Assembly: GCA_029834535.1 (NCBI GenBank)
Contig: JAQMWT010000531.1
Coordinates: 354,341-418,340 of the forward strand
Length of the DNA stretch: 64,000 bases
Reading direction: 5' to 3'
From: Chrysophaeum taylorii
Lineage: Eukaryota; Sar; Pelagophyceae; Pelagomonadales; Pelagomonadaceae
Position numbers and translations under genes: made by a program. Shown here piece by piece: positions 37,788 through 63,632 of the stretch. A model generated the notes under the pieces. The model did no database searches and was not told where the DNA came from. It worked only from the letters and a program-made list of their open reading frames with translations. Position 1 is the first letter of the stretch, and every line of letters begins with the position of its first letter.

Positions 37788-37951
37788 CACTATACTCCTA
37801 GGGTTCGCACCTTCTTATATCACGCTTAATTCAGAACACATCGCTGTGTTATCAACACCGTGCTGTCCTCGTTGTTAGAAACAGGGCAAGGGCAGCCTAC
37901 CACTGCTCTCGCTCTACCGAAGGGCAACACAGTAGAAAATACTGTTCTCTA
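37788..37951 (+). repeat. LTR-like repeat X, plus orientation (left copy)
   Basis: 164 bp beginning CACTATACTCCTAGGGTT and ending AATACTGTTCTCTA. It matches the reverse complement of 47208-47371 with five mismatches that I count (about 97 percent). The two copies are therefore inverted relative to each other, unlike normal LTRs. Flanking sequence diverges sharply on both sides. Confidence 0.9.
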
Positions 37952-38165: not shown

Positions 38166-38608
38166 TTCAGCGCAGCTGCTGATGAATGTCAATGGTTTCA
38201 TGAGATCTCCTCTTCCCACCCCTATTTATTTTCGTGTGATCAAGCTCACGCTATTCCCCTGCTTATCGACAATGCTAGCGTGTATATTCATGCGTACATG
38301 AAGCAAACCATCCTAAAGTCAGTGCTCCCTCTCGTCATATTAACTTACGGGAATTCCGCATACGTGACTACCAAGCCAATTCCGTGATTCGTCCCCTCTG
38401 GTGTCCTACTCAGTACCAGATCGCCGATCATTTTTCGAAGATTCTTTCTCGCACTTTGTTTCACAAGTTCAAAAACGCCTATGGTCTTCATTCCACCTCT
38501 TCTTCACCTCCATCTCACCAAGTCCATCTTGCCACTTCTCTTCCATCATACAACTCCGTTCAGAACACTCTCCACATTCTTGTTGACGGAAAATCTCGTC
38601 CTGTTTAG
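38166..38608 (+). pseudogene. Copia RNase H C-terminal half, inverted relative to its element
   Basis: On the plus strand, in broken frames, the sequence reads SAAADECQWFHEI, AIPLLIDNASV and QYQIADHFSKILSRTLFHKF then KNAYGL. This is the end of a Ty1/copia pol (typical pattern: EAEY..L..A..E..W, IxxDNxSA, xxQxADIFTKxL). The matching N-terminal half ends STMEAEL on the minus strand at about 38610. The C-terminal half thus points the opposite way from the other domains of the same element. Confidence 0.8.
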
Positions 38609-39052
38609 TTTGAGTTCGGCTTCCATGGTGCTCTTGGCAGTGAGTGTCTGGCGTTTTCTAGACCAAAATACGAGATAGCCAAGAACGAAAATACAAGCAC
38701 CAGAGTAAGATCGTAAGCGGGGGTCAGAATGGTCAGCGAAACTGGCATCAGTGAAACAAATAATGGGTGAACTAAGATGATGCAATTCGGGATAGTTCCT
38801 GATCAAACGTTGAATAAAGGGTGTAATGGAAGGGCTGTCGGATGAATAGTCTGAAGAATCATTCGGAGTGCCCTTTAAGTAGCGAAGTAAAACATACAAG
38901 TGCAGAAGATGAGTCTGCTCAGGATTGTGCATGCCTTTGCAGCATTTGTTGCACAGAGTTGTAATATCAGGGCGACATGTAACGGAGAGGTGAATAATAG
39001 TGCCACAATATTGAGGAAAATGTTTGCGAAGAATATCGAGAGTAGGAGCCAA
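38609..39052 (-). pseudogene. Copia RNase H N-terminal half
   Basis: Contains TCRPDITTLCNKCCKGM and HLYVLLRYLKGTPNDS, the copia linker before RNase H. Then come ICFTDASFADHSDPR with the first catalytic Asp, SYSGACIFVLGYLVFWSRKR and QTLTAKSTMEAEL. The frame then runs into antisense of the inverted C-terminal half, which ends the domain abruptly. Confidence 0.85.
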
Positions 39053-39065
39053 ATCGGAGAGAAGC

Positions 39066-39782
39066 TTAGCCGAAGGAGAGAGGTATTTTGGCGGTGTTGG
39101 TACCAGTGATCAAAAGATCGTCGACAGAGACGGATAGAAGAGCCCATCTGTTGATAGATCGATCCCAACTTATGTAGAGACAAGTGTCGACTTGCGAGCT
39201 TTCGAACTCATGTTGCCGAAGGAACGAGTCAAGCTTGATGTTCCACAACAAAGCCGACTGTTTGAGACCATAGAGTACCTCGACGAGTCGCAGAGCTAGC
39301 TTGGACTCCGGGTGGTTCTTCTGTATCTGCTGAATGAGGTTCTGCGAGACACGAATACCACGAGGCAAATCGATCCATACCGGGCGATCAAGCGCCGATT
39401 GGATGAAGGCCTGTGGGATGTCCGCGTGCGCGACGGGGAGCTTGTGCTTCACGGCGATGGCGAGCAATAACCGGTTGGTGGCGAGCATCGCGGTCGGTGA
39501 AGAGGTGGCATAGAAATCAATGCTGACGCGTGCCAAGAAACCTCGGGCAACTAGGCGAGCCTTATATCGGTCCGGAGTGCCGTCAGCAAAATACTTGATC
39601 TTTAGCACGAGTTTCGTCGATATTGACGAACGATCCGGCGGCAATGGCTCCAGCTTGAAGACGCCATTAGAGAGAGCATAATCCCTCAATCTCCTTCCGA
39701 ATTGAAGCGATGTGCTTGAGCTTATCTCCCTCGCTGAGGCCCTTGAGTTCGACAATTTTCTCAAGCTCATAGACAATGTCAT
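39066..39782 (-). pseudogene. Copia reverse transcriptase (RVT_2) core
   Basis: Clear RVT_2 motifs: YKARLVARGFLARVSIDFY, TSSPTAMLATNRLLLAIAV, LPVAHADIPQAFIQSALDRP (first catalytic Asp), LVEVLYGLKQSALLWNIKLD and LLSVSVDDLLITG (the YVDD-type box, here SVDD). The frame differs from the segments on each side, so at least two frameshifts separate it from its neighbours. It belongs to the minus-strand element spanning about 38.6-47.4 kb. Confidence 0.92.
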
Positions 39783-41400
39783 CAGCAGTCACGAGCTGTA
39801 ACACCACGTGATCAATGTGCTGCAAGTTATAGTCCATGACTTCTTGGAGAATGTCTTGGTTCGGGTCACTTTGACTTAGAAAAAGGTGACCGAGTTCGCC
39901 AGTGTCGTGCATGAAAGCATGTCTATCACGAGAAGCTATGTGGTAGTGCTGGTGCGCAGAGATGTCCGATAACAGGGAGGAACTCATACAACAGAATTCT
40001 TGGTTCCATTGTCGCACATAGTACTCTGCCAGTGACAAATCGTCATGGCACATGTTGTTCTCGAGGACAGAGCTATCGTTATCCAGATGATCAACTAGAA
40101 CAGACGAATGATATGGCTTCTTTGGGAAGTCGACATGCAAATGTTCTGCGTCTGTTTCCCTCTGCAGATCCAGCGCGCTGCCACCTAATATGCCGTAATC
40201 TTGGGTAGTGTGCGCGAGGATGCATCCTATCGGTACATCGTCTGGTGGCTTAGCGTGTCTCCTGTTCAATCCGGACGCGAGGCTGGCGGCATGGCCTTGA
40301 TGCAAAGCGCTGACGCCGATAAGGAACATCAATGTGCTGGACATGTTGGTTGTGGCGCGTGCCGTGGGCTGATCCTGTTGGTACATCCAGTTGCGACCAT
40401 ACTCTGAGGCGAAAATGCGTCTGGTGAACAGTTGCCCATAGTCAACACGATTTACGATGTAGAGTTGGTCTTTAGGAATGCGGAAACCGCGGTCGTCCTT
40501 GAGATCTGCCTTGAGTTCGTCACTCTGGTTGCGATGAACAATGACTGGGGTGAAACCTGAGTCGTCGAGAACAACCTGTAATCGGTCGTGTCGCTTTGGC
40601 ATTGGGATGCTGCCGTCCGATGGAGGAGGCCTGTTGAGGAACGAAAAGTCCTGTTCAGGTGGCTCGTCACTGTCTGGGCTTGGACGGTTGGCAGGGTTTT
40701 GATCCGAATCCGCATCCTTATCGTCAGGTTTGTCGTCGTGATCATGATTGGGAGTCTCACCCTCATTTGGTGATTCCTGCCTAAGTTCCGGCATCGGCTG
40801 GTTGCTGATGGCTGGAAGCGGGGTATCTTGCCGTGAGTTTGTTGGAGACTGTACCTGTGCTTTAATGAGCTCAATTTCCTTGTTGCGATTAACAGGCGAG
40901 TCTGCGTCGACGTGGAAGTCGTTTGACGTGACGATTTTTCCTTACTTCCCTTGTTGTACAAGCAAGATGGAGCTGTGGACATCGCGGATAAATCTGTCAG
41001 TGCCCGGGAGGTCAGGCAGATAAATGTTGCTGTGGAAGTAGGGGGCCGAGACGTTGGAGGGCTCCATTTTCTGGCTTTGCGGGTACACGAAAGTGACTGG
41101 TTCGCCAAATGGGAGGAGCCAAGAGTGGTGCCTTTGACGACATGATGCGCCTAGGGACGGTGCAAGACATGTGGGTGCGTGAAGGCAGCCCATTGGAGTG
41201 TTGGTTGTCGGCTTGGATCTTGTGCAGCAGAGTAAACGGGTGGTAATACTCGGCGCTAATAGGCTTCCCTTCGATGCGAACGTGGCGCAGATTGCAGATT
41301 CAGAAGGCGAATGACGGTACCACGGGTGTTTTTTTGATGATGTTTTCCGCCAAATTCCGCTGGTGTAGGTGGCGACCAATGATTTGAAACTGGATGCCAA
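39667..41400 (-). pseudogene. Copia pol linker between integrase and reverse transcriptase
   Basis: Two segments in the same frame (40942-41400 and 39667-40794) are separated by stops. They read as a hydrophilic, Pro/Asp-rich linker (ETPNHDHDDKPDDKDADSD, NRPSPDSDEPPEQDFSFLNR) and then a longer helical part ending EKIVELKGLSEGDKLKHIAS. That last part is the copia pattern just before RT. No catalytic motif is expected here. Confidence 0.7.
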
Positions 41401-42601
41401 GCTGCACTTTGAGCGGGTGAAAAGCTTCGGAGCGGAATGTCGAGAATGCGTCCGATGACATCATCTTCACATGTACATCGAATTCGACGTTTGCGACGTT
41501 GACCACGTAGAGGATTCCTGCAAGAACGTCTCGTGCGTCCAGTTTCCGCAGGAAGTACACCCATTTGAGAGCCGATATTACACATACAAAGTGCATGATA
41601 TAACGAAATCCACCATAGCATTTACTGATGCTCGGGCAGGGCACATCCATATGAAGATGTTGACCAGGGGCATAGGCCGGTTCGTCATGCGACCATGAAG
41701 CGCTCTTGTGGCTGAAACCGACGTGTGACTGGCAGCGCTTGCAGTCGGTGCAGTCCTGTAGACACCAGTCATAACCTGAGTGGAGGTTAGTGACATTAGC
41801 TGCGATCGTGCGGCGAAGAACCTCGGGCTGCTGGTGGTGAATGAGGTGCCAGCGGGTGACCAGGAGCACTCTTTGAGCGTGCTGAATGGTGCCAGGCTTG
41901 TGAAAAGGAGGCAGCGCAGCAGACGACGTGCTCGGGGGGTTGGTTCGTTTGTCAACTCTGATCTTTGCAACGGTGGCTTGGGCAAGCAACGTTTCGAGGT
42001 TTGTCGAATTGGGTGACTTGCGAATCGCAGCATGGTGAGCATCTGCAACAGCACTGAAAAGTGAAGTGAGGTGGAGGTCGTCGACTGCTAGAAGGCCGCC
42101 GGAGACGATTGAGAAGAACTCCGTGATCTGACAAATGTCTCCTGGGCTAGGAATGCCATTGCGTAGTGCGTCCCATTCGATGTGAAGATTCACATGGTGA
42201 TGCGATTCGTGATGTGCCAGAACAGCTCTGAACTTTGCCTGTCGCATGTTGTGTGGGACAGCGTTGGCCAGTGCCTTGAACGCGAAGAACGGCGGGTGCT
42301 TGCGGAACAAGCGGAGAAGCTCTGGGTCCGAATGGTGTCCAAATTTTGCGATTTCGTTGAGAGTCTCGTATCGGATGCGATCGGGGGAGACCAGCAGGAG
42401 TGCGTTGGAGTAACTCGTGTTGGTGGGGTACGAGCCAGTGACCGAGTAGCACTTGTTGCTTTTCTGGAGCGTTTCGCCGATGTGGACGACATAGTCCGCG
42501 TAAGTGGGACGTGCTTCGGACATTATGAGTCCCGTGGGGTCATCGAGAGTGATTCGCCCTCGTGAATCGATCGCGGCACAGCCGGGGCGTGAGCGATTCA
42601 T
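41300..42601 (-). pseudogene. Copia integrase
   Basis: 434 codons, open. The zinc-binding HHCC region is RWHLIHHQQPEVLRRTIAAN then CLQDCTDCKRCQSH. The rve core has QHLHMDVPCP (Asp 1), VHVKMMSSDAFSTF (Asp 2) and RNLAENIIKK (Glu), so the DDE triad is in place. About 200 residues precede the zinc region (ALLLVSPDRIRYETL, NAVPHNMRQAKFR), longer than in common copia integrases. The ATG at 42601 overlaps a TGA in another frame (ATGA). The frame also continues upstream through one TAG at 42647 into the methyltransferase-bearing frame. Confidence 0.88.
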
Positions 42602-42649: not shown

Positions 42650-44267
42650 GGAGGTGGTGAAGGCCACGACCAAAAAAGCGGTACCCTTGGGGACAGATGG
42701 GGAGAAGGCGTGTTGCGGCGAGAAAGCGGCGGTTTGGTGGGCGCAATCCAGGATCTGGGGGGGGTGCGAATTGAGCGTGACCGAGGCGCGCGTGAAGTAA
42801 CCACATGCAAGGGCGGTGGCAGCGGTGCCGGGGACGAGTCCATCCAGCTGGTAGATGCACATGTTGACTCGAAAGCGTGGAAGCAGCGAAGCGTATTCCA
42901 GGAGGCGAGAGTGGGGTGTTGCCGCAAGTGGTTGTACAGAAGTGTGAATACCAGGCGCGAGGTGGAAGTCATAGAGGCATAGGGAATGCCGTCTGCATCC
43001 AGTCCAAGATCCATGAAGGGCTGCTTGAGACATGCGAGCATTTGGCAGATGCGTGCATTCTCGGAAATCGACAGTTGAGTTGCATTGTCGGGTGTGTACG
43101 AGCCGGGCGGGCCGGTTGGCAGCCGGAACGTTCGCAGTGGGACGGGGTATGGCCGGGGGGCGAAGACGGAAGGTTATCGACGAGTTGGTTCTCAGTCACA
43201 TCGCGGTCTCCTCGTCGCATGGCGACAAGCTTGATGGTCACTCTCCGCCGACCGACCTTTCGGCGCTCCTCGTCTACAGGCCCGTGATTCCGGACTGGCT
43301 CCTGTCGGTCCGGCCTGGCTCCCATGCTCGGGAGAGGTCTGAAGTTAGTTAGTTAGTTAGTGTGTACGAGAAGATAGCCTTGTGGTGATAGTAAGTAGTC
43401 CAAGGTTGAGCGAGTCACAGTGCCGCGAAGGGCGGGGGCGTGTATCCAGAGATCTTCTGGGATGGTGTGACTAGGGTCCAAGAAGGGAACCATGCTCGGT
43501 GGGGATGTCAACCAGGAGGAGGCGGTTTTCTCGAGATTGTAGCCATCTAGCGGGTGCCGAGCGAAGACAGCGAAATAGCGGTGCTTGCTTATGGCGTCGC
43601 CGAAGGCTGAGGCGTTGTAGACACCGGAGTGTCGGAAGTAGCCCATACTTTGATAGCATCTGGCAAGTTGCGTGTACTCGCGGTGAGTTTTCGGGTTTGG
43701 TGGAACGTTCTCGACAATAGTGAATGTCGGGAGCGTGCAACGAACAAAGCGGACTTGTTCTTTAACAAAAAGATCGGCAGTCGCTGGAGTTGCATAGCCA
43801 TCATATTCCTTCATTACGCTGAGGTGTTGACAGGCCAGGGTGAAGACGGCCATGTCAAGTCGAGGCAGTCGTAGTTTGCCAGTTTGAAGGGCGGCAGTAA
43901 GTTGCCTGTGATCCCTGTGATGCTGAGCATCTGGTAACAAATGTTGCGCGCGGGCGTGCATGGTGGGGTTAATTTCACAGGTGACAACGACAGTAATGCG
44001 TTTGTCGAAGCGTTTTCGAAATGAAGAGAAGCCTTCTTGATGAAGTCCACCTGCGATAATGGCAGTGTGCAGCGGAGGAGGCTGTGTAAACACAGAGATG
44101 TCCGCGGTGCTAGTGAGCGCATATTCTAAATAGGGGCTTGGCAGTTTGAAAGATTCCGTCAGAAAAGCAGAATGGGGTTGCAATTTGGCAAAATCGAGAA
44201 AATGCGACTGGGAGCGGGTTTTTGCGACTCTTTGCGTAATGTTTGCGATTTCATCCTGGAGTGACAT
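42650..44267 (-). pseudogene. Cytosine-5 DNA methyltransferase domain within the copia element (interrupted by a retroposon)
   Basis: Frame 43353-44294, first ATG at 44267 (MSLQDEIANI). C5-methyltransferase motifs appear in order. Motif I/II-like is AIIAGGLHQEGF...VVVTCEINPTMHARAQHLL (GG..xGF then CEI). Motif IV is LDMAVFTLACQHLS, with the catalytic Cys where the family has PCQxFS. Motif VI is FTIVENVPPN. Motif VIII-like is YNASAFGDAISKHRYFAVFAR. After subtracting the 257-bp retroposon and one 11-bp duplication, the frame continues in phase to 42650 (REC, LPRFRVNMCIYQLDG, CAHQTAAFSPQH). It then meets a TAG before the integrase. The enzyme would methylate cytosine in DNA. It is broken here, so inactive as it stands. 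Confidence 0.72.
43103..43359 (+). mobile_element. SINE-like retroposon inserted in the copia element, with 11-bp target-site duplication
   Basis: Flanked by GTGTGTACGAG at 43092-43102 and again at 43360-43370. It begins CCGGGCGGGCCGGTTGGCAG and ends GGTCTGAAGTTAGTTAGTTA, a (GTTA)n tail. Related copies lie at 30472-30518, 35248-35545 and 38088-38165. It has no coding capacity. It is younger than the host copia element because it interrupts its frame. Confidence 0.9.
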
Positions 44268-44377
44268 GTCGCGGCCGGCATGGAAGCTGACCACAATGGC
44301 GAATGCATGCTTTGGGTGAGATGGGAGTGACAGGAGGCCGTTAGTCTGTCAATGAGCGATAACTACAGCAGTGGTTT

Positions 44378-45273
44378 TTAAGAGTGTTTGTAGTCACGAG
44401 GGTCTGAAGTGGAGATTTTCAAAAGTTCATACAAAAATCGCTTGTACGGCAGCGGCGGGTCCGTTGCCTGAACATTGAGAGCTTTTAACTGGGATGTCGC
44501 TATAAACTGCAAACCTGGTCGGAAATGCGGGACGACTAGGAAAACTAAGTATAATGCGTAGCCAGTAGAGCCTTTTATGTTATGTGAGGAGAGACCTGCA
44601 GCTTTCAGATATAGTGGCTTTATACCTATGAAGTTGCTGGTGAGAGTGCCTCTTCCCATGCGGATGGTATGCTCGGGAATCCCGCGAATGGATTCTTGAA
44701 CAGAATTGGTTGTGGTGCGAGTAAAACAAAAGGAAGCACCGCCGTCGAGCAGAGAAAATTCGGTGCCGGGGCCGGGACCGTTGCACCCGTGCAGGGAGTT
44801 CGTCTTTTTTGAAGGTTTTCCTGCGGTGTATGCTGCGCACAAGAAATCGGCGACTGGTTTGGAAATTTTCGATGATGTGGGGGAATTTGTCATCTCGAGG
44901 CTGGGTGCCTGATTAATGTTGTTTGGTTGGCGGCACAGGCGTCGTCGGCAACCGTTAGCGAAAAGGCCGGCTCTGTTGAAGTGCACGTATGTGGTCCTGG
45001 TGGCGTTGTACATTCTTCGATGGAGTCTTCTTGATCTGCGGTTTCGGGAACTTGATCATCGTCGTATAAGCCGAGGTGACCTTGGTCATCATATAAACCG
45101 AGTTGACCTTGGTTATCGTATGAGGAGCCGTCGTCGATAGCGCCCTCATCAGCTTGATCATCCGGCGGTTGGTCGGAGGAGTGGAGCTGAAGAAAGTCGG
45201 CGGTATCAGTATCAGCCTCAGATAGGAGTATCTCGTCAAAGATGGTGGTGATGAGGTTGATGAGCATGTTCAT
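44378..45273 (-). pseudogene. Copia aspartic protease region
   Basis: The later frame (44378-45013) contains GTEFSLLDGGASFCFTRTTT, matching the retropepsin active site of copia elements (LLDSGAS, here DGGAS). LHGCNGPGPG precedes it. The earlier frame (44890-45273) is an acidic linker with repeated LGLYDDQGHLGLYDDD. The two frames overlap by about 120 bp and are separated by a frameshift. The protease lies directly upstream of the methyltransferase domain. Confidence 0.75.
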
Positions 45274-45611
45274 GCGGTCAGAGTTGGAGGTGTTTTGCCG
45301 GGCAGCTTGACTGAGGTTACGGATGGTTTGGAGTTTACGGCGAACATCACGTAGGGGAACTTTGAGCCGTTGGTCAGGAGTGGGTGGCTTGGGAGGGTGC
45401 GTTTGTGTGGGAAAGGTGACCTTGCGGAGGTGCGGGTGTTCGCGTTTGTCAGAGGTGACAGGAGGAGCGCGAGGAATCGGTTTATGCTTAGTGGGGGTGA
45501 CCGGGGTGTGCTTGGGCTTGGGACTGTCATTGATGTCGTAGTAGGACGGTGAACGAGGATTCGGGGGCTTTTTGGTTTTCTTAGGGTGGCGGGTGAGTTG
45601 TTTCTTGCGTT

Positions 45612-47122
45612 AAGCGTGGAGATTTTGGATGAGTGCGTTATCATCTTCTAGATCAAGATTGGCTTCCGTGATAAAGGCGTCGACAAGGTCGGCGTCGTCA
45701 GGAGGTGCGTCGTCTGGATCAGGAGGTATCTCGTCTTCGGGATGAGAAGCGTCGTCGTCATCTTCGGTGAGGTGGAAACCCAGGCGACGTGAGCGGAGGC
45801 GTGGGTTGTCTTTGTCCTTGGTCGGCAGACGACCGAAGTCGGTGACAAAGCGGAGAGGCTTGCAGTTTAGGGTGTGGTGGGGCTTGAGGTGAGCCCAGAA
45901 GTTGCGTTCAAAGGTTGATATGGCTGTGATGCGCGCGATAAGCTTGGGCAGATGATAGATCGCAGCCTTATCTTCGTCGAGGAGCTGAGAGTCGTTCGGG
46001 GTACGAAGACAATTGGCGAGACGGGCGAAGGCTTTAATGTGAGTTGGGGCGCGGGAGTCAAGTAAACTTGGGGTATACTTGAAACGAAGTATTTTGTAGG
46101 TTTCGTCTTTGATCGTGTTGTCGGCGAGTGGGAGAGAAGGATCGTGGGTGATTTGAAGTAATTGCTGTTGGACGTGGCGCGTATAATCGATATAGTGCGC
46201 TGGTTTGTGGATCTCCGGGTTGAACGGTGTCTCCAGAAACGAATTGAAGACATAGCGAGCATGATGGACATGGTTCTGGCCCGTGTGCTTATCAAGAGCG
46301 ATGCGAATTTGGTGTACAAATTCGAGTCCTATGGGGTGTGAGGATCCGAGTTTGTCGATTTCGTCGTATGCGGGGTGCTTGACTGAGTCGCGACCGGCGT
46401 GCAGAAAACGGCGAAATAGAGGGTGGACAGTCTCGCGGAGGTAGACTATGAAGTCAGCTTCTTTATCTTTGAGGTGGGGTTGCGTGATAGGATAGAGCTT
46501 TCCTTTCGACGAATCGGTGGTATCTTTATCTTTTGCTTGTAGTTCTTGGAGTTTGGGCTAATCGATATTGTCGAGGAAGTCTTTGCCGACCTTGCGGTAG
46601 ACGCCCTGGTAATAGACTAAGCGTAATTGGAAATCTTGGTTGTTGCCAGCAGTGGCATGGTGTTCGGGTTTTTGTCGTATTCATCCACGCAGTGGCCAAG
46701 GAGAGCGTCTGCCAGATCGTTAGATCCGCGTATGACGCATTCCCACGTATAGAAGCCAAGGAGGAAGTATTACGTAATGCCAGTCTCGGGCATGAGATGT
46801 TCGGTGAACAACTGCATGACGTGGTAAGAGAGCATTTGGGGGGTGACTTGAGCGCCGTCCATGGACTTGAGAACAGAGCTAAGGGGGTCAGAGAAGGTGG
46901 TGGCCTTGCTCTTCGGGGCTTGTGGAGCCGTAGGGGGGGGGCGGTCGCTGCTGCGACGGCTGGTGGTAGGGTGTTTTGGTTTCGCTGCATCTGGGCGGTA
47001 AACGCGTTGAATTGTGCAGTGAATTCTGCCCTTAGGCGATCTTTTTGGTTTTTCATTGCTTGGTCATGTTGGGTCTTCAGATTGGCCATCTCTTGTCGTA
47101 GGTCTTGATTGCTTCCTGGCAT
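45612..47122 (-). pseudogene. Copia Gag region
   Basis: The ATG at 47122 opens MPGSNQDLRQEMANLKTQHD, a coiled-coil Gag start. A run of eight G at about 46936-46943 coincides with the first loss of frame. The rest of Gag can be read in another frame between about 46330 and 45612: HTGQNHVHHARYVFNSFLE, HIKAFARLANCLRTPND and an acidic end FHLTEDDDDASHPEDE. No CCHC zinc knuckle was seen. Position just inside the right LTR-like repeat fits Gag. Confidence 0.65.
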
Positions 47123-47207: not shown

Positions 47208-47371
47208 TAGAGAACAGTAATTTCTACTGTGTTGCGCTTCGGTAGAGTGAGAGCAGTGGTAGGCTGCCCTTGCCCTGTTTCTAACAACGAGTACAGCACG
47301 GTGTTGATAACACAGCGATGTGTTCTGAATTAAGCGTGATATAAGAAGGTGCTAACCCTAGGAGTATAGTG
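47208..47371 (-). repeat. LTR-like repeat X, minus orientation (right copy, 5' side of element)
   Basis: 164 bp whose reverse complement matches 37788-37951 at about 97 percent. It lies 86 bp upstream of the Gag ATG in the element's own sense, as expected for a 5' LTR. TG...CA ends are not obvious. The following segment (AGGTATAAGGGCACCAG) is not an obvious primer-binding site. Confidence 0.85.
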
Positions 47372-61533: not shown

Positions 61534-62586
61534 TCACACGCGCACAAACATACCGAGTAGAGAACGAAAAGTGGAGAACTCAGCTGCAAGTGGCTTTGTA
61601 AAACCATCAGCCACGTTTAGCTTGCCGGGAACATGATGGACTCGAATTTTCTGTGGCGAGATGTACTCACGGATCTTAAACCATCTGGTCGACAGTGACT
61701 TGGAGCGAGAGGATCCATCTGGGTTATTAGAGGTGTGAACAGCAGCAGCATTGTCAGACAAGAGAGGGAGGCTTCTGATGAAGCGCATATCTTCAGCAAT
61801 TGGGTTGTCATTGTCATCGAAGTCAACAGGATCAGCGGTGTTCTCACCATTAACATTGTTGACGTAGAAGGTGGGGTTGACGACAATGGAGAGTTCCAAC
61901 AGCAGCTTGCGTAGCCAAACAGCTTCGTCAGCACAAATACTGAGGGCAACCAACTCAGCTTCGTGAGTTGAGCAGGAGACAATCGGTTGAAGCTTGCTTT
62001 TCCAACAGATAAGGCAGTTGAAAAGATAGAAGACAAACCCGGTGGTAGATTTCCTATCTTCCTGTGCTAAGGAAGGGGCATTGTCAGCGTCGACCATGGC
62101 AACTAAGGGATCAAACTGTCCAGTGGATACATCCTGCGGTTGGTAGTCAACCACAGTGGAAAGATCAATTCGATTAGCGGAGACAGTGCGAAGGTGAGCT
62201 TCAATGGCATTACCTTTAGGGTGAAACCAGAGGCGAAGTGAGCGGTTTTCCGGCTCCTTGAGGTAGCGAAGTAAATGCTCTAGCATTTGGACGTGAACAT
62301 ATGTGGGTGCATGCATACCACGCGAACATCTGCCCAAGGCTTGCGAGAAGTCAGGTCTGCAGGCAACTTGCATGAACACCAGCTTGCCAAGGAGGGTGGC
62401 AAAGTGCGAGTTGATGTACAACTCTGCTTCAGAGCTGGGAGTGCCATCTTTATACTTGAAGGACGAGGACATAAGATATTTAAGCGGAGTTAGTTGCTGC
62501 AAGACAGGATGATCAGCGAAGAGTTCATCAAGCTTGGCTTGCACCTCCAGAGATATGGATCCATCAGATGAGCGACACACACGCAT
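61534..62586 (-). CDS. Copia RNase H domain, second element
   Basis: 351 codons. RT connection: LDELFADHPVLQQLTPLKYL, QVACRPDFSQALGRCSRGMH, LLRYLKEPENRSLRLWFHP. RNase H: VAMVDADNAPSLAQEDRKST (first catalytic Asp), TGFVFYLFNCLICWKSKLQ, VSCSTHEAELVALSICADE, LLSDNAAAVHTSNN, ISPQKIRVHHVPGKLNVADG and FTKPLAAEFSTFRSLLGMF. All catalytic acids are in place and the frame is intact. It is much better preserved than the first element's RNase H and belongs to a different copia family. Confidence 0.92.
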   Translation of the reverse strand: MRVCRSSDGSISLEVQAKLDELFADHPVLQQLTPLKYLMSSSFKYKDGTPSSEAELYINSHFATLLGKLVFMQVACRPDFSQALGRCSRGMHAPTYVHVQMLEHLLRYLKEPENRSLRLWFHPKGNAIEAHLRTVSANRIDLSTVVDYQPQDVSTGQFDPLVAMVDADNAPSLAQEDRKSTTGFVFYLFNCLICWKSKLQPIVSCSTHEAELVALSICADEAVWLRKLLLELSIVVNPTFYVNNVNGENTADPVDFDDNDNPIAEDMRFIRSLPLLSDNAAAVHTSNNPDGSSRSKSLSTRWFKIREYISPQKIRVHHVPGKLNVADGFTKPLAAEFSTFRSLLGMFVRV

Positions 62587-62599
62587 GCCTAGGAGGGTA

Positions 62600-63632
62600 C
62601 GGACAGGTTCAAACTGCCCTAGAGCATACCGTTTGTGGAGGGAATCCTGTAACTCAGTACGAGAGTGTCATCATTGGACACGACAACAATGTCGTCTACA
62701 GACAGACTGCATACGACGAACTTAGCATGTGCGGATACTCGAGCATATAGGCAAGAGTCCGAATGCAGGCGTTTGTAGCCAAGGCTACGGAAGAAGCGGT
62801 CTATCTCTTTGTTCCAAAGAGATGGTGATTGCCGAAGTTGACTTCAGCAATTTCGGTAGGCGTCGGCCCTTGTACTTAGCGTCATCGGGGTCGATAAGTT
62901 TGATGCCGTCTGGTAACTGAACATGGACGTTGGCATCAATGTCAGACTGAACGAAGGCGTTCGGGACGTCTGCGTGGTAGATAGGCAAATGCTTGTATGT
63001 TGCAATCGCCAGTAGTACCCGGATTGCGGTCATTGTGGCCATTGGGCTGAAGGTGCCAAAGAAATCGGCGCCAAGGGATGCTAGGAAGCCACGTAGCACG
63101 AGGCGAGCCTTGTGCCGTATTTGCCTGCAGAGTCTGTTTTAATCTTTAGCACCATCCTGCTGTCAATAGGGCGAGAGACACCGTCGGGTAATGAAAGTTT
63201 GAAGCAGCCAAAGCGGATAATGTCGTGGAGTTCCTTGGCGATGGCCTTGAGGTAGGCGTGCCTGTCTTCAGGCGACATACCGTGGAGGCACTTGAGTTTG
63301 TATTCATCGATGGAAACGTCCGCTTCTTGGACTTTGTATTCATCAGGACCAACAGTGGCTGGTGAACTATAGTTTAACGACGTTGCGGTCGAGCGCGACT
63401 TCGGGATAAGCGGAAACAGCGTCAGTAGGAGGGGTAGAGGAAGCAGATTCCAGTTGAATATGGATAGTAGGGTCGGCATGTAAGACCTGAGTGATATTAG
63501 CGCCAAACTCGGAGGAGTTGTGATCGAACAAGCTGGTCGGCGCCAGAACGTAAGTGCATATTGTAATGAAGAGTGCCAAAGGCAGCAGCGTGCTTGGTGA
63601 ACGCAGCTAAAAGAGGCTGAGAGATGGAGCAC
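62600..63632 (-). pseudogene. Copia reverse transcriptase, second element, broken
   Basis: Segments in different frames: SPEDRHAYLKAIAKELHDII and PIDSRMVLKIKTDSAGKYG upstream. Next are RGFLASLGADFFGTFSPMAT, YKHLPIYHADVPNAFVQSDI (catalytic Asp) and VHVQLPDGIKLIDPDDAKYK. The YGLKQS block is missing. After another shift comes WNKEIDRFFRSLGYKRLHSD, then VCSLSVDDIVVVSNDD with the catalytic VDD. At least two frameshifts or small deletions break the RT. Confidence 0.85.

Follow-up and report, generated by a model that had tools for sequence, protein, structure and literature searches.

The question raised by this locus in the alga Chrysophaeum taylorii is whether a Ty1/copia retrotransposon can carry a cytosine-5 (C5) DNA methyltransferase (MTase) of its own and, if so, whether the enzyme is a one-off capture or a standing part of the element. 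The locus lies in a stretch of 64,000 nucleotides from contig JAQMWT010000531.1 (the whole of which we call the window), where a first-pass annotation had read C5-MTase motifs between the protease and the integrase (INT) of a copia element. The MTase is real: it sits inside the copia Pol, upstream of INT and after a protease-like motif. Our preferred reading, to which we give a probability of about 60%, is that a complete C5 MTase of bacterial type is a standing Pol domain in a deep branch of Ty1/copia, upstream of INT (and behind the protease wherever a protease motif is recognisable), and that this enzyme would methylate the complementary DNA (cDNA) of the element before integration.

A C5 methyltransferase domain within copia Pol

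A minus-strand frame of 331 amino acids (43353-44348) holds AGGLHQEGF, CEINP, ACQ, VENV and HRYFAVFAR, all in frame and in the order first reported. The profile search suggested with that annotation supports the assignment: PF00145 matches the frame at 8.4e-8 (32.4 bits, with a curated cut-off of 22). PHROG 116 and 363 match at 2.1e-8 and 5.6e-8, and the NCBIfam dcm model at 2.4e-6 (27.4 bits, below its cut-off of 100.65).

The limits of the domain differ from those first drawn. Mapped with a relative, L022, as ruler (tblastn, and identity to L022 frames), the MTase spans 44138-42080 on the minus strand and consists of the catalytic half with motifs I-VIII, read in frame (43518-44138); a target-recognition region (TRD) in three pieces (43514-43395, tblastn 85%; 43101-42856 and 42865-42350, both matching L022 pol at 76-79% by tblastn, the frame changing near 42856-42865); and motifs IX-X, LNEIAKFG...ANAVP (42080-42349, tblastn 76%), into the first of which the clade profile described below could be aligned with M.HhaI. 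Because motifs IX-X map to 42349-42080 and INT proper to 42019-41026 (minus strand; 79-87% to L022 INT), the frame originally labelled integrase (41300-42601) begins with the end of the MTase. The domain is thus present at 42650-44267, as proposed, but those bounds cut it short, and INT is likewise present but with another extent. The ACQ read as the catalytic-cysteine motif is correctly positioned but is not the intact consensus, which is PCQ in 28 of the 29 copies of this family (family A) that we compared; ACQ occurs in the window copy only, and we read it as a decayed catalytic site. Motif VI is ENV in 28 and the motif VIII arginine is kept in all 29 of these copies, which were picked by profile score, a choice that favours conserved copies, after eight short loci repeating longer ones had been dropped.

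Three families in one genome

PF00145 has 57 matches in the genome. Twenty of these loci were cut out; tblastn ties 18 to the window MTase, and the remaining pair are host genes. A 607-residue MTase query gave 82 matches from the best 72 of 790 candidates, and these 72 family A loci include 30 of the 57 PF00145 places (the remaining 27 were examined in part). The expectation that other copies would hold the MTase between protease and INT is borne out by L022, whose pol is one open frame of 1952 codons with DGGAS at residue 82, the MTase at 349-475, rve at 1016-1110 and RVT_2 at 1686-1933, preceded by a gag frame of 578 codons. The RVT_2 match (PF07727) is strong (1.6e-38), and the rve match, which lies before it, is weak (0.0061 in one scan and 0.0012 in another, below the Pfam cut-off). 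Direct long terminal repeats (LTRs) of about 200 bp flank the relatives L027 and L031 (95.5% and 96.5% identity); target-site duplications were inspected by eye at these two loci, and none was convincing.

Family B (L047/L048) is a different copia element with the MTase in the same place. Its motifs I-VIII lie in one frame (TSPCTNRN, EMTPPH), and its IX-X part, recognised by eye and from a weak profile match (0.0005), lies upstream of INT. The MTase of family C (L049), which matches the clade profile at 8e-38, stands upstream of a reverse transcriptase (RT) from a group frequent among the RVT_2 matches listed. The B and C domains are 54% identical, and PF00145 matches neither at E values up to 1. 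Queries from B and C each found at least 150 genomic matches (among the best 150 of 837 and the best 150 of 905 candidates, respectively), with no locus common to the two; neither set overlaps the 72 loci of family A or the 57 places matched by PF00145. Contig pairs C10/C297 and C25/C521 gave near-identical matches and are probably redundant contigs of the assembly; with four place pairs on these apparent duplicates left out (one A, two B, one C), the genome holds at least 368 MTase-bearing copia loci (71 A, 148 B and 149 C).

A probable single branch of copia elements

Relatives outside this genome were reached by searching a protein database with INT-RT, which returned 113 proteins, and scanning these with a profile of eight family A MTases. 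Thirteen match the profile with E values no higher than 1e-8; the remaining 100 have values of 2.9 or above or are absent from the matches listed. All 13 pol proteins carry the source tag 'ena' and are presumably environmental in origin. The INT profile precedes RT and the MTase precedes both in 13/13; the strict protease motif DSGAS stands upstream in two (P0007 and P0045), and several records may start downstream of it. The motif IV cysteine is present in all 12 that cover the region (as TCQ, PCI, PCQ, PCT, PCL or PCY). Motifs IX-X follow the TRD: the PF00145 match in P0007 reaches profile position 320 of 324, and motif X can be seen by eye in alignments A1 and A3.

We compared the RT sequences of these elements with those of other copia elements. 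An RT match was present in 129 proteins; the 122 with more than 150 residues were thinned by number to trees of 53 and 40 rows (P0045 is in neither, and family C is in no RT tree). The larger tree has a fork of 25 rows (support 90/93) in which five truncated proteins nest among the MTase-bearing rows; the MTase label there needs three changes because these proteins (P0003-P0006 and P0009), whose upstream part is absent from the record, lie within the clade. The smaller tree, from which these five and nine long-branch rows were removed, places 17 MTase-bearing rows on one side of a 100/100 branch and 23 other copia rows on the other, a value valid for that reduced set of rows. The MTase domains, placed in a tree of their own, group all 15 element rows at 96/96 against five others, a poor outgroup (P0001, which has no motifs I-VI, was left out).

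Several separate captures by copia of unrelated cellular or viral methyltransferases would be an alternative origin, and they might be suspected from the great divergence of the sequences, the long branch of P0002 and an outgroup of five rows without DNMT1, DNMT3 or DNMT6. The constant place upstream of INT, the single RT clade and the single MTase clade all speak against this, and we regard it as very unlikely. The suggestion of a further, possibly independent, capture holds insofar as the element class differs from that of the published cases (copia, rather than LINE, DIRS or Gypsy), but a capture limited to one family does not fit two further families and 13 database proteins with the same domain. 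The MTase appears to have been integral to one copia branch for a long time, rather than captured once. Separately, one copia pol protein (P0088) has a SET domain (PF00856, precomputed) together with rve and RVT_2 and might be a counterpart that bears a histone methyltransferase.

Constraint on the domain

We estimated the ratio of nonsynonymous to synonymous substitution (dN/dS) in 15 copies. Medians over open copies (numbers in parentheses) were 0.125 for the protease (8), 0.122 for MTase motifs I-VIII (13), 0.234 for the TRD (12), 0.187 for motifs IX-X (13), 0.114 for INT (7) and 0.124 for RT (5), indicating that the catalytic half of the MTase is constrained as tightly as the essential enzymes of the element, with the TRD looser. 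A set of nine copies gave 0.139 for motifs I-VIII, 0.228 for the TRD and 0.16 for motifs IX-X.

These values bear on the idea that the domain is now mainly structural or DNA-binding (placing INT or binding target chromatin, for example) and no longer catalytic in most of the clade. Beside the motif IV cysteine stands a different residue in families B and C and in most database members, and ENV is mostly replaced there by E[MIL]TPP; the length of the TRD also varies widely across the clade. Against such a loss, the motif IV cysteine, motif VI glutamate and motif VIII arginine persist despite very low overall identity (C82 and E122 are invariant in the nine rows of alignment A5; R166 is invariant, and C80 and E121 nearly so, in the 12 rows of A3), and motifs I-VIII are the most constrained part of the MTase. 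We consider a mainly structural domain unlikely.

Type of methyltransferase and fold

Searched against the PDB, the clade profile (A3) finds M.HhaI first, at 6e-12, in an alignment running from the PCQ region to motif IX; M.MpeI (1e-11) and M.HaeIII (3e-10) come next, followed by DNMT1, plant chromomethylase and DNMT2. The fold is that of an S-adenosylmethionine-dependent MTase, with DNMT1, M.HaeIII and M.HhaI among the best fold relatives. M.HhaI, M.MpeI and DNMT1 are free-standing or host enzymes, whereas the element MTases are embedded in Pol and, for most of the clade, deviate at motifs IV and VI. A first structure model (P0045, three rows, pLDDT 41.5), for which the 50 matches listed are C5 MTases, was not relied on.

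With these matches in hand, chance motifs or a misread copia linker have a negligible probability. Such an error might be suspected from the searches that returned nothing: phmmer with the single window frame against the PDB gave no match, two MTase queries of the protein database (7987 and 7999 candidates scored) no significant match, and scans of viral and prokaryote contigs with alignment A2 no relative. It is refuted by the PF00145 match, the clade-profile matches in the PDB and the fold, and also by selection and recurrence.

DNMT3 enzymes have PCN at motif IV. No chain labelled DNMT3 is among the 52 (A3) or 32 (A5) PDB matches listed, an absence that does not by itself exclude DNMT3; because of this and of the PCQ of family A, the evidence points away from the DNMT3s of DIRS and Gypsy elements. 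In the small MTase tree the nearest sequence is a DNMT5-like host gene, at 54/34, too weak to count as support. Chain 7r76, labelled Rad8, which we take to be fungal Dnmt5, matches A5 at 0.0015, and a SNF2 domain was sought in L022 pol and gave no match. The host genes themselves are distinct: L001 matches DNMT2 structures (3.9e-39), and L002/L021 has PF00145 and SNF2 joined, at L021 (G000:C621) in a single open frame that runs for at least 1978 codons, the layout given for DNMT5 (PMC12344493; this and the papers cited below are represented by the portions available to us). A search for a bacterial donor among phages and plasmids by tblastn gave 24-33% identity over part of the query only, and we claim no donor.

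State of the window copy

The rest of the window element was mapped on the same ruler and, unless stated, lies on the minus strand. The 5' LTR (47208-47371, 164 nt detected) is 79-81% identical to the L027 and L031 LTRs over 113-115 nt. It is followed by a gag region in several frames (45013-46587, 73% identity to the L022 gag frame) and a protease region (44390-44917, 76% to L022 pol 27-200). The protease noted upstream of the MTase is recognisable by eye from a DGGAS active-site-like motif, but has no Pfam protease match. Downstream of INT lie the INT-RT linker (39805-41022, 80% to L022 pol), a Ty1/copia-type RT (38931-39804; PF07727 at 4e-33, tblastn 77-93%) and an RNase H-like frame assigned by eye (38546-39109), which has no match in the Pfam scan and a weak one to L047 pol 1532-1719 at 39148-38624. 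The second LTR copy (37788-37951, plus strand) is inverted and 97% complementary to the first, whereas the LTRs of L027 and L031 are direct; the 3' end of this copy is rearranged.

A nested interspersed repeat of about 258 bp (43104-43361, strand not assigned) interrupts the MTase. This insertion, the decayed catalytic motif (ACQ at motif IV), the broken frames and the inverted second terminal repeat mark the window copy as a dead relic. The repeat has inserted repeatedly in or near copia-MTase elements: copies of 255-266 bp (96-98% identity) occur in L026, L034 and L038, and others in L016 and L048, most conserved at 96-98% and some shorter. A second copia element (61966-63368, minus strand) runs past the window end. 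In the RT and what follows it, this element shares 51-58% identity with L047 pol, so that it probably belongs to the MTase-bearing branch; any MTase would lie beyond 64000.

Elsewhere in the genome, PF00504 has 84 matches. The best solved relatives of the two searched are fucoxanthin-chlorophyll proteins, which point to an alga with chlorophyll a/c, and genes for these proteins form tandem arrays with equal or nearly equal scores (G000:C88:35406-41267 and G000:C539:24843-30127).

Proposed role

We propose that the MTase is translated with Pol, is packed into the virus-like particle with INT and RT, and is either released or left joined to INT. It would then methylate cytosines of the new double-stranded cDNA (or of an RNA-DNA intermediate) before integration. 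If the MTase is made with Pol and packed with INT and RT, cDNA is its most probable substrate. A new copy arriving methylated could pass as host DNA, the camouflage suggested in the first-pass annotation; its methylation could also protect it against nucleases or deaminases, or silence it immediately and so reduce harm to the host.

The ratio of observed to expected CpG is 1.02-1.05 in six family A stretches and 0.91 in L047, compared with 1.23-1.43 in nine host stretches; TG/CA is higher in the element stretches, and GC content differs too. Low CpG with more TG/CA fits methylation and deamination, whichever enzyme did the methylating. Several points weigh against our proposal. Host methylation of transposons (the DNMT5-like gene is present) would explain the CpG deficit equally well, as would the differing GC content. 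Most of the clade is off consensus (PCT, PCI, PCL, PCY or TCQ at motif IV, and mostly the ENV variant described above), and with variant motifs and PF00145 missing B and C, activity or target may have shifted. The strict protease motif is scarce among the database proteins (2/13), many copies are broken, and the methylating function is proposed from sequence and fold.

The substrate might instead be RNA (genomic RNA, primer transfer RNA or messenger RNA), as has been suggested in print for LINE-borne orphan DNMTs. We consider this distinctly unlikely, since the profile matches M.HhaI, M.MpeI and M.HaeIII, all DNA enzymes, far better; the depletion of CpG in element DNA also speaks against it, though weakly.

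Relation to known elements and implications

DNMTs have been described in LINE and DIRS elements of Symbiodinium and in Gypsy elements of Klebsormidium nitens, and Symbiodinium Copia was stated to have none (de Mendoza et al. 2018, PMC5890265). KnitGypsy-Dnmt3 resembles the present case as a C5 MTase in the Pol frame of an LTR-type retrotransposon, under purifying selection and in many copies, but it is a Ty3/Gypsy element with a DNMT3, whereas here the element is copia and the clade profile matches bacterial enzymes, DNMT1, chromomethylase and DNMT2. SymbioDIRS-Dnmt3 and SymbioLINE-Dnmt are likewise algal retrotransposons that bear a C5 MTase and number in the hundreds; the former is a DIRS element (with a tyrosine recombinase) and the latter a LINE, as opposed to copia RT and Pol order (PMC5890265). 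Adenine methyltransferases resembling Dam, borne by DIRS elements, are also retrotransposon-borne DNA methyltransferases (PMC5890265, PMC6338049) but are structurally unrelated (PMC5890265). One sentence in Sarre et al. 2025 (PMC12344493) names DNMT3s embedded in LTR Copia and DIRS elements, making Copia a DNMT3 bearer; it assigns the enzyme to DNMT3, gives no element or structure in the text available, and cites the 2018 paper, which describes Gypsy. In the corresponding portions of other papers, Morozov et al. 2019 name Gypsy and DIRS without the word copia, and Hoguin et al. 2023 and a 2025 Ectocarpus transposon paper treat copia elements with no mention of a C5 MTase in them. Searches of an open-access collection (subscription papers and preprints being outside this scope) listed no other paper with a description of a copia-borne C5 MTase in its title or the beginning of its abstract. 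The element class, copia, sets these MTase-bearing elements apart from the published LINE, DIRS and Gypsy cases.

Hosts usually turn cytosine methylation against transposons. An MTase of the element's own, held under the same constraint as protease and INT and kept in hundreds of copies, probably pays for itself in the replication cycle, and what a retrotransposon gains from methylating DNA becomes a testable question. Because PF00145 places overlap no B or C place and PF00145 is precomputed in 2/13 database members, surveys based on that profile will have missed most of the branch. The broadest form of our proposal, which we hold to be about as probable as its contrary, is that a C5 MTase is an ancestral core domain of a whole, previously unrecognised Ty1/copia branch, probably spread through eukaryotic plankton with most members missed by the standard profile, and that it writes methylation on the element's own cDNA before integration. 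The branch is very abundant in this genome, and its enzymes could shape the methylome of the host.
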